Below are positions 5,860 to 11,109 of a DNA stretch of 64,000 nucleotides, one piece after another. The number at the start of each line of letters is the position of its first letter. Position 1 is the first letter of the stretch. This stretch comes from an uncultured Candidatus Entotheonella sp. (GTDB lineage: Bacteria > Tectomicrobia > Entotheonellia > Entotheonellales > Entotheonellaceae). The notes beneath the pieces were generated by a model that saw nothing but the letters and a program-made list of their open reading frames with translations, was not told where the DNA came from and did no database searches. The stretch lies in assembly GCA_951828535.1 (NCBI GenBank), contig OX639990.1, forward strand, positions 2,591,300-2,655,299. Reading direction: 5' to 3'. A program made the translations under genes and the position numbers.

Positions 5860-6311
5860 CTACCTCGTAGCAGCCTTGCCTTCCTCCTCCTTCACGTGGG
5901 CGTTTAATAGGCCCGCCTTGCGCTTGCTCTTCAGCCTGTAACTCTCCCCTTTGATGTTGATCGTCGTCGAGTGGTGCAGCAGACGGTCCAGGATCGCCGT
6001 GGCCAGCACCGCATCACTGAAGATGTCGCCCCAGTCCACGAAGCTCTTGTTGCTCGTCAGGATCAGCGACGCCTTCTCGTAGCGCCGTGCCACCAGGCGG
6101 AACAGCAGACTGGCATCTTCACGCGACAAGGGCAGGCAGCCAATCTCGTCGAGGACCAGCACCTTGGGATACGTGAGTTGCTGCAGCAGGCGCTCCAGGC
6201 GGTTTTTCCTGACTCGCCCGCTTGAGCTTGACCATCAGTTCTTCAAGGGTCAGAAACAGTACCCGGTGGCCTACCTCAGCGGCCTTGATGGCAAGACCGA
6301 TGGCCAAGTGA
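5860..6311 (-). pseudogene. istB: istB, C-terminal half (IS21 transposition ATPase), frameshifted
   Basis: The segment begins at the IS110 junction (6309-6311) with LAIGLAIKAAEVGHRVLFLT then LEELM, the sequence that normally follows the GPPGVGKSH P-loop of IstB. Near 6205 an extra A shifts the frame; in the next frame the protein continues as [20 protein letters not shown] then IGCLPL (Walker B). It then reads [13 protein letters not shown] and the C-terminal [14 protein letters not shown] to the stop at 5860. IstB is the AAA+ helper for IstA. This half is separated from its N-terminus by about 3.1 kb. Confidence 0.9.
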
Positions 6312-6342
6312 TCTCGTACCGATTGTCAAGACTCGTGATGGG

Positions 6343-7413
6343 TTAAGCAGCACTGGCTCGGCGCGAGTTTCGGATCTCTTCAGGCACCGTGAGTTGTGCC
6401 GCCACGATGGCTTTTCCCTGCTGCACACTGATGGGTTGCCCGTCCCGGTCACGCAAGACATAGGGAACACCGGTCTTCAATACCCGGTGAATACGGTTGA
6501 CCAGACGGGTGGCCACCGCGCATAGAGCTTGCTTGTGATGGTGTCCCTTATTGACCATGAGGCGCCAATACACCTCGGCAAGGTCAGGATCGATTCGACG
6601 GGCGACGTCAGACGCCAGGTACAGAGCCCGCTTGAGACGATCGTTGCCGGCCTGGGTGATGTGTTGGCCGGGACGGTCCTTACCCCCTGAACTGGATGTC
6701 TTGGGAAACAGGCCGCAGAAGCCACGCAGCTGACGTTCGTTGCGGAAGCGCTGCGGATTGGCAATGACGCCAATGAGCACGGGGGCCAAAGCCAGTCCGA
6801 TGCCCGGGATGGACCGGATGACATCACTCGGGTGAACGACGCGGTAGAGCGTTTCGCATCTGCGGTTCAGCTGCTTGACGTGAGAAGTCAGTTGCCTCAG
6901 CAGGGCGACCTCTTATCGTACCTCGAACTGCAGGGCCTCAAAGTCCAGGCCCCGTGGGTGAAGCGACCGGGTCTCTCGTGCCGCAGCTCGAAGGCCGTCA
7001 ATCAGTTGCTCGATGAAGGGCCCAGAGACAGGATGATTGCCCGCTGCATGACGCGACAGGAATCGCCGCAGCCGGTCGCGCCTGGCGCGAAGCACGCGAG
7101 CCGGATCGAAGAGGTCATGCAGAATGGCGAGCGACAACTGCGTGAACAGGTCTGGCAGGATGTCTTCCAGTGCCGGACAGGCCCAGCGGATCAGGTCCAG
7201 AAGCCTTCGCTTCGATGCGCAGCGCATGCCCTGGTAACGATGCCGCTGCTTGGTGAACCGTTGCAAGGCGTGGTGGCTTGCCGAAGGCAGATGCATGGGC
7301 TCGAGCCGCAGGGTGCCGATGGTCGGCAGCACGCCCAGCAAGTTAGCGTCGGACAGGTCGGTCTTGGCATGCTCGCTGAGATACCTGCGCAGGGCTTTAA
7401 CGCGTTTTCCCTT
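6343..7413 (-). pseudogene. IS110-family transposase, central and C-terminal part
   Basis: Just inside the inner IS the frame resumes with GKRVKALRRYLSEHAKTDLS, then HLPSASHHALQRFTKQRHRY, the conserved middle of IS110 transposases. An in-frame TAA lies at 6913-6915. Beyond it the same frame continues as VIRSIPGIGLALAPVLIGVI and the Transposase_20 region GFCGLFPKTSSSGGKDRPGQ, with the serine-rich SSSGG motif of this family, and stops at 6343. Together with 8896-9154 it makes one transposase of normal order, inactivated by an insertion and two nonsense codons. Confidence 0.88.
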
Positions 7414-9450: not shown

Positions 9451-9785
9451 TGACTTTTCCCGACACCTGGCGGGCCGAGCAAAATGACGTTCCCGCGGCG
9501 GTCCAGGAAGCCGAGCTCGTGGAGGCTCTCGATCTGCTCGCGCTTGATGCTGGGCTGGAAGCTGAGGTCGAACTGCTCCAGGGTCTTGAGCCACGGCAGA
9601 CGCGCCTGCGCCAGGCGAACCTCCGCACCCTTCTGCTTGCGGCCCTGCCATTCGCAAGTAAGGGCCTCGGTCAGCAACTCGCGGTACCCCAGGTCCTTCT
9701 TCGCCGCCTGTTCCAGCAGAGTGTCGCACTGCGCTGCCAAGTGGTCGAACTTCAGGGCCTCGAAGAGGCTATCCAGCGCTGGCAT
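9451..9785 (-). pseudogene. istB: istB, N-terminal half (IS21 transposition ATPase)
   Basis: The ATG at 9785 overlaps the end of istA by 17 bp, the usual IS21 arrangement. The protein reads LFEALKFDHLAAQCDTLLEQ, the IstB N-terminal domain, then LTCEWQGRKQKGAEVRLAQA and the P-loop VILLGPPGVGKS. After the serine codon the homology stops at the IS110 junction. The next codons (QVSIAQRR, stop) belong to the inserted element. The rest of IstB is at 5860-6311. Confidence 0.92.
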
Positions 9786-10953
9786 GGGCCACCTCCTCGT
9801 AGGTATGCAGCGAGCGGGCTTCGACCGTCACCTCGGCCCACAGGCGAACGTGGTGATCGGCCACCGTCTGCCAGCCCGCCTCGGGTGGCACCAGGCGCTG
9901 CCGGGCGATGCAGTGCTCGCCCGCGTAGACCGCCAGGTCGCCTTCCAGGCTCACGTGGATCGTCACCATCTGGCCACAGTAGGTAGAAGGCACCGAGTAG
10001 CGGTTGCCGCGCACGTTGACGTAGGCATCCCAGCTCACCTGCCGGGTCTCGATGTAGCTGGTATCAAAGAGGTGGACAGGCAGCGGCATGAGCGCCGGCC
10101 GCTCGCGCTCGAAACGTACCGCCACGACCTCCTTGACGGTGCCGTGCAGGCGCCCGTCGGCCTCTTCAAGCAACCACGCCTCCAGCAGCTGGTTCAGATG
10201 CGCAAAGCTCTCAAAGTGCCGGTAGCGCTGGAAGAAGTGCTGCTTGGCGTAGCCCACGATTCGCTCCACCTTACCCTTCGTTCTCGGCCGGTAGGGACGG
10301 CAGGCCTTGGGCACGAAACCGTAGTGACGGGCCAGTTGCTTGAAGCGTTCGTTGAAGCGCACGGCGCCGGGCACGTGCGCGGTCACCGCGGCCTTGTGGT
10401 TGTCGACCCAGACCTGCCGGGTGACGCCACCAAACCAGGCGAAGGCGCGTGCCAGGCTCTCGTAGGTGTGCTCGGCGTCACAGCGCGGCGCCGCCATGAC
10501 GTGGAAGCGCCGCGAGTAGCCCAGGACACTGACGGCGATGTAGATCCTCTGGGCCTTGCCGCCGACGGCGGATGATGATCTCGCCCCAGTCATGCTGCAG
10601 CTGCCTGGCGGGCTCGGTCTCGAAACGTAGGGTGACACGGCTCGGTCGCAGCGCACGTCTGGGCTCGATGTAGGAACGCAGGACACGAAGCTTGCCATCG
10701 TATCCCAGGGCCTGGATCTCGCGGTAGATGACCACGGCGTTGAAGACGCCGGCCTGGAGCAGCTTGTCCACTGTCTCCATGTAGGGTTTGAGTTTGCTGT
10801 ACCTTTCGCGGCGGCGGCTTCTGGATGGCGGTCCGCCCCGCTTGAACGCGCGGCCGACCGTCTTGCGATGCACCCCGAGGCGTTCGGCACGCCCTGGTAG
10901 ACCCCTTGGTGGTGTAGTTCCTGTATCATCCAATAGGCCTCTTGAGTAAGCAT
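9769..10953 (-). pseudogene. istA: istA (IS21-family DDE transposase), two frameshifts
   Basis: The ATG at 10953 begins MLTQEAYWMIQELHHQGVYQ. The frame shifts at about 10900, where a second frame continues ERLGVHRKTVGRAFKRGGPP and NAVVIYREIQALGYDGKLRV up to HDWGEI (first catalytic Asp). At about 10565 it returns to the first frame with KAQRIYIAVSVLGYSRRFHV, VWVDNHKAAVTAHVPG (second Asp) and RPRTKGKVERIVGYAKQHF (Glu). The C-terminus is normal and overlaps istB. The protein would be complete but for two indels, so IstA is inactive. Confidence 0.9.
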
Positions 10954-11109
10954 GCCCCCTCCGGTTTCGTGTGGAAACCAAAGGGTTACATGAGTTACTT
11001 GAGGGGACACCTTAAAATGCCGCTTCTGGGACTTTTACCACTGCCGCTGACAAAGCCGGGCGACGCACGGTTCGCGTGCACGGTATTGGGTCCCGGCCAG
11101 CCACCCGTT

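Follow-up and report, generated by a model that had tools for sequence, protein, structure and literature searches.

The elements of the IS110 group move by RNA-guided recombination (PMC11208160, PMC11187229), and their bridge RNA, located in the left end, pairs over 8 to 9 nt with the left target and over 4 to 7 nt with the right target (PMC11208160). The IS621/IS110 group (Durrant et al. 2024, PMC11208160) is characterized by a DEDD recombinase, a long noncoding left end that precedes the gene, one guide pair for the target and one for the donor, a core dinucleotide in both target and donor, and the lack of a target duplication. The seekRNA-guided elements ISEc21 and ISEc11 (Siddiquee et al. 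2024, PMC11187229) have an RNA from the noncoding region with two stretches that match the target, and related elements have been naturally retargeted. IS4321 and IS5075 (IS1111 group) are directed to Tn21 transposons, whose terminal repeats serve as their target (Partridge and Hall 2003, cited in PMC11208160). For IS21, both IstA and IstB are needed for transposition, and the ATPase motifs of IstB that have been tested include Walker A (PMC11208146).

The locus described here lies in a 64,000-nt stretch of DNA from an uncultured Candidatus Entotheonella sp. (the window) and consists of three insertion sequences (ISs) nested in one another: an IS21-family element, an IS110-group element within its istB, and an IS1182-like element within the IS110 transposase gene. 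The traits given above for the IS621/IS110 group are common to the middle element and its relatives, the guides being predicted; the differences are a CA core in place of CT and a longer transposase of 441 to 453 aa. While the targets of IS621 are REP-like sites, the target here is the coding sequence of the istB Walker A motif or an IS5-family transposase gene. IS4321/IS5075 likewise represent a wider-family IS specialized on a site inside another mobile element, but their site is a transposon end, whereas here it is a protein-coding motif of a helper ATPase that is conserved across many IS21s. The likeness to ISEc21 and ISEc11 extends from the predicted noncoding RNA to the retargeting, which is paralleled here by an istB clade and an IS5 clade. 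We propose that three insertions occurred in sequence and that the IS110 was directed to the Walker A codons of istB by a bridge RNA of its own, a reading to which we assign a probability of roughly 0.88.

Nesting and order of insertion

The nesting of the three ISs was borne out base by base when the inserts were removed from the sequence by script (Table 1). As had been predicted from the letters alone, istB is split in its Walker A region by the IS110, and excision of 6312-9453 restored the istB frame; this is equivalent to excising 6311-9452 because T-CA is common to both junctions. The IS110 transposase gene is in turn split by the 1,482-bp DDE element with its CCTT duplications, and excision of 7414-8899 (the inner IS and one CCTT) gave one frame that is open except for two nonsense codons, TAG at 8981-8983 and TAA at 6913-6915. 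The original prediction was to be abandoned if the joined frames failed to align with known members; since both aligned end to end with intact relatives, the nesting stands. The joined istB was gapless at the IS110 junction relative to the intact sister-genome IS21 copies and read through Walker A as GPPGVGK-S-H-LAIGLAIKAAEVG (motif GPPGVGKSHLAIGL). The TGA reported on both sides of the IS110 corresponds to the CA core dinucleotide plus one base common by chance.

The proposed order of arrival (IS21, then IS110, then the DDE IS) was upheld at every junction and follows from the nesting itself, which dictates the sequence of insertions. Decay had also been cited for this order. The counts were reproduced against the intact sister IS21 and in the joined frame: two frameshifts in istA (−4 nt near 10889/10890 and +1 nt near 10563-10573, by alignment to the sister copy L073), one in istB (+1 in the T run at 6203-6207, relative to L073), and two nonsense codons in the IS110 transposase, while the innermost transposase is intact and identical across the eight copies in the genome. 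These counts are consistent with the order but, being so few, do not prove it by themselves.

The possibility that unrelated IS copies had been wrongly joined during assembly was considered because eight near-identical copies of the inner IS are a classic risk for such an error. However, CCTT is identical on either side of the inner IS, both reading frames rejoin exactly and without a seam, intact relatives exist, and the IS110 and the split IS21 are single in the genome apart from a 190-bp fragment. Mis-assembly is therefore very unlikely. The 190-bp piece (2809119-2809312 of the same genome) matches the istA end of the outer IS21 at 74% identity and is a remnant of another IS21 copy. Upstream of the nest, an IS3-family (IS2-like) orfA/orfB pair occupies window positions 3130-4357 on the minus strand.

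Table 1. Positions of the elements, genes and predicted RNA guides in the window
Feature	Position	Strand	Description and basis
Outer element, IS21-family IS	5800..11052	-	TGTCA...TGACA ends; 2,111 bp without inserts; istA then istB
istA pseudogene	9769..11010	-	NCBIfam transpos_IS21 E 3e-55; gapped alignment to intact sister copy L073
istB 5' part	9451..9785	-	Through Walker A Lys-Ser codons and CA core; IstB_IS21 profile positions 4-111 (Pfam)
istB 3' part	5860..6310	-	Downstream frame, IstB_IS21 profile positions 156-238 (Pfam)
Middle element, IS110-group IS	6311..9452	-	1,656 bp without its insert; same orientation as istB
IS110 transposase pseudogene	6343..9154	-	Interrupted by 7414-8899; 441 aa if read through; Transposase_20 and NF033542 matches
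Noncoding left end of IS110 with predicted bridge RNA	9155..9450	-	Left-end alignment (13 distinct sequences) and column scan
Predicted left target guide GGGGCTAAGACG	9408..9419	-	Column scan peak, column 35
Predicted right target guide ACGATGTG	9383..9390	-	Column scan peak, column 78
Predicted left donor guide TAACGAGAT	9237..9245	-	Top of donor scan; matches right end GGTACGAGAT; covaries in L023 and L028
Predicted right donor guide AATACCTG	9202..9209	-	Top of donor scan; complementary to CAGGTATC at left end
Inner element, IS1182-like IS	7414..8895	+	1,482 bp; intact 393-aa DDE transposase at 7504-8685
CCTT target duplication	7410-7413 (first copy), 8896-8899 (second copy)		Flanks the inner element

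Properties of the three elements

The extent first given for the IS21 (5860-11009) was too short. Its TGTCA/TGACA boundaries were fixed by copies in a same-genus sister genome (G002, approximately 86% identical DNA), which holds several copies of this IS21, three of them with an uninterrupted istB. The assignment to the IS21 family is supported by the presence of istA and istB between terminal repeats of the form TGT...ACA. ISBmu1-type and other IS21 elements share the istA-istB order and the TGTCA/TGACA ends, but the window copy differs from them in being decayed, interrupted and without a visible target duplication (GGCTT versus CGGAA at the window ends). Among the four sister copies with both ends located, a 4-bp flanking match was observed in only one.

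The ends of the IS110, CA/GGTATCTATAG and GGTACGAGAT/CA (the slash marks the junction here and below), are common to its relatives with small variations. The CA core is present in one copy per junction (9451-9452 and 6309-6310), and the empty site is known from L073 and from a Burkholderia contaminans locus (L061). The joined flanks of one relative, L015, are identical in 800 of 800 bases to the intact ISBmu1-type istB of L061, and it was deduced from this match that insertion adds no duplication beyond the CA core. The other traits of the group are also present, namely a noncoding left end of approximately 296 nt upstream of the transposase gene, a right end of approximately 32 nt, and the combination of a RuvC-like DEDD fold with Transposase_20 (C-terminal part: Transposase_20, E 1.6e-15; NF033542, E 8e-21). 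Annotated IS110 transposases align end to end with the joined window transposase, of which residues 1-437 are 66% identical to intact plasmid-borne transposases of Burkholderia. The window copy is dead, since two stop codons and the insert break its recombinase gene; relatives have open frames, and the inactivity reflects the decay of a family member rather than failed membership.

The inner element carries DUF772 and DDE_Tnp_1 domains and imperfect 17-bp terminal inverted repeats (7414-7430 and 8879-8895). Inverted repeats together with a target duplication, as expected of an IS1182 member, were thus found. Its nearest annotated relatives are named IS1182 (45 to 48% identity), although the score against the NCBIfam IS1182 equivalog was 102 bits and fell short of the cut-off of 270; for this reason it is labeled IS1182-like. 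The IS1182 family (ISUnCu17-like) has the same DUF772 plus DDE domain layout and inverted repeats, whereas the inner transposase is shorter (393 aa versus a 488-position model). The eight copies in the single-contig genome differ from the window copy at 0 to 2 positions. The 4-bp duplication is perfect in six of the eight, reduced to 3 bp in one and absent from one (L008). The element is recent and apparently active; it was not found in the five other genomes searched with it. A second copy in the window (13122-14603, minus strand, GTTC duplication) adjoins a truncated helicase/restriction-like ORF at 12461-13075. Two of the copies, L003 and L005, share one insertion point in the same target (AACCGGTAACATCC/TTTACACA) and face in opposite directions; the target itself is therefore repeated in the genome.

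Recurrent insertion at the Walker A codons of istB

Intact relatives of the IS110 use the same point of istB, just past the Gly-Lys-Ser/Thr codons of Walker A, in 10 further two-sided cases and in 3 that are one-sided (L030, L036 and L080). The joined flanks of the two-sided cases read GPSGVGKS/HVAIALAY (L014, from L014/L047), AGPTGTGKS/HLAQALG (L015), GPPGTGKS/HLSIALG (L043), GKPGTGKS/HLAKAVAY (L046), GPPGTGKS/HLAVALG (L018), GPPGVGKT/HLAIALG (L022), GPSGVGKT/HLAISLG (L023), GGTGTGKS/HLATALG (L024, from Pseudorhizobium pelagicum), GGTGSGKT/HLCIAI (L027) and GPPGAGKS/HLATALG (L033). The NCBIfam IstB equivalog cut-off was passed by all five joined IstBs tested, and in two of the first plasmid matches the distance to the upstream istA was the same. 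The hosts are alpha- and betaproteobacteria, with full-length matches on plasmids and in genomes. The subfamily is rare, being present in 1 to 4 of approximately 395 genomes in each of the family-level surveys (Rhodobacteraceae, Acetobacteraceae and Rhizobiaceae). No relatives were found in viral contigs or, within the class and phylum of the window, outside its own genome. Not all members of this clade are in istB: the two relatives L016, where the site still reads GGCAAATCC-CA, and L017 are located elsewhere.

The pairwise identity of the DNA around the istB sites is mostly 38 to 59%, reaching 69% and 74% in the two closest pairs, from which it was concluded that the insertions were separate events. 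The original prediction had treated the nest as a chance stack. Nests of this kind are common where insertions are tolerated, and the window has several other ISs, so that an untargeted strike on istB might seem sufficient. This is contradicted by the recurrence of the same codon boundary in at least 13 other insertions into such dissimilar istBs, among them three copies of one IS110, each in a different istB, on the Burkholderia plasmid pBVIE02 (CP000618.1), and plain chance is accordingly a very remote prospect. A single ancient IS21::IS110 composite spread by horizontal transfer would likewise give the same position everywhere, by inheritance. However, L014, L015, L043 and L046 carry near-identical IS110 copies in istB flanks that are only 44 to 53% identical, and intact istBs without IS110 exist for the same IS21s; an inherited position is therefore highly improbable, and repeated, targeted insertion is preferred.

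The istB Walker A region is a hotspot that is also used by a second, unrelated element. In the sister genome, an approximately 2.4-kb element that encodes a 546-aa large serine recombinase lies within istB of the same IS21 and interrupts it (L071:2746-5220 and L072). Its site, GPP/GVGKT, lies a few codons upstream of the IS110 point, within the Walker A coding region. This composite is present twice in the sister genome, with outer flanks that differ at the istB end.

A sister clade of the IS110 from Acetobacteraceae (L019-L021, L025, L026, L028, L029, L032, L060, L081 and L082) inserts at GYKS/H of an IS5-family transposase gene. Both guides and target differ from those of the istB clade, and the predicted right guide GGAGACGTG is exactly complementary to CACGTCTCC, its target in the IS5-family gene.

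Predicted bridge RNA

A bridge RNA with target- and donor-binding loops is predicted from covariation scans over the relatives. In an unguided scan, every left-end column was asked whether the match of its k-mer to its own target beat that to shuffled targets; these permutation tests treat the rows as independent although they are related, and the probabilities are to be read with this in mind. The best left-guide column was column 35 (window GGGCTAAGA; z 4.8, familywise p < 1/4000, rows related). The best right-guide column was column 78, located 43 columns downstream (z 3.8, familywise p 0.02, rows related), and a hairpin lies between the two. The right-guide signal is due to the contrast between the istB clade and the IS5-targeting clade and was not significant within the istB-targeting clade alone (p 0.23). 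The left guide of the window copy has one additional T, and its fit is poor to its own target (4.5 of 9) and better to the GGCAAGACC form found in istB of the sister genome; postinsertion decay or a mismatch-tolerant event must therefore be assumed. Another candidate target guide, GGCAAGAGT at column 356, had a high raw match but did not track the target (z −1.6) and was rejected; it adjoins the donor guide.

The predicted donor guides rank top at columns 364 and 415. Compensating changes were observed at both ends of L023, where CATG at the element end is accompanied by ACATG in the right donor guide. The predicted donor loop of the window folds no better than shuffled sequences, and no credible matching RNA family was obtained from Rfam for the left end.

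Across the relatives, guides and targets track each other. The choice of site may thus be attributed to the bridge RNA, on the basis of this tracking and by analogy to the published IS621 mechanism. Recognition by the recombinase protein, or of a local DNA feature of P-loop genes, was weighed against this. The conservation of GGNAARNNNCA in the istB targets would fit such recognition, as would the large serine recombinase element, whose presence in the same region suggests that the site may attract for other reasons. Against it, no other left-end column tracks the target as well as the guide columns do, guides and target both differ in the sister clade, and RNA guidance has been demonstrated in IS621 (PMC11208160) as well as in IS1111/IS110 elements (PMC11187229). 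Protein or DNA recognition is therefore considered unlikely, if somewhat less so than the alternatives discussed above, and guidance by the bridge RNA is favored.

Discussion

The following course of events is proposed for the nest. The IS21 would have arrived first. The target-binding loop of the IS110 bridge RNA would then have paired with the DNA encoding Gly-Lys-(Ser/Thr)-His of istB, the donor-binding loop with the ends of the IS110, and the recombinase would have exchanged strands at the CA core, leaving no duplication. The insertion, by which the istB frame was lost, would inactivate IstB and so silence this IS21. An active IS1182-like element would have landed in the IS110 transposase gene as the third step, and the death of the window IS110 would be due to this insertion and the nonsense mutations.

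More broadly, the IS110 lineage is probably a dedicated RNA-guided hyperparasite, one that lives in P-loop codons that IS21 cannot vary, silences its host IS, and has, through a rewritten guide, switched victim between istB of IS21 and an IS5-family transposase, in one direction or the other. Such a lineage may gain by living in other ISs, which offer an abundant, dispensable and highly conserved target. IS21 is not mentioned in the main text of Siddiquee et al. 2024 (PMC11187229), and istB is not described as an IS110 target in the main texts of three papers from 2024 that deal with IS110 guide RNAs and recombination. No report of it was found in the open-access literature searched, which does not prove priority.

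Guide-directed homing would explain why IS110-in-istB nests exist. The lineage represents a natural test of bridge-RNA targeting, with many independent insertions whose guides, targets and mismatches can be read, and the natural retargeting between two victims, istB and the IS5-family transposase, adds to the value of this test. By guiding on the codons of an invariant protein motif, one guide may serve for many victims, just as inteins and homing elements favor conserved motifs. The findings also suggest control of some ISs by others that are RNA-guided.
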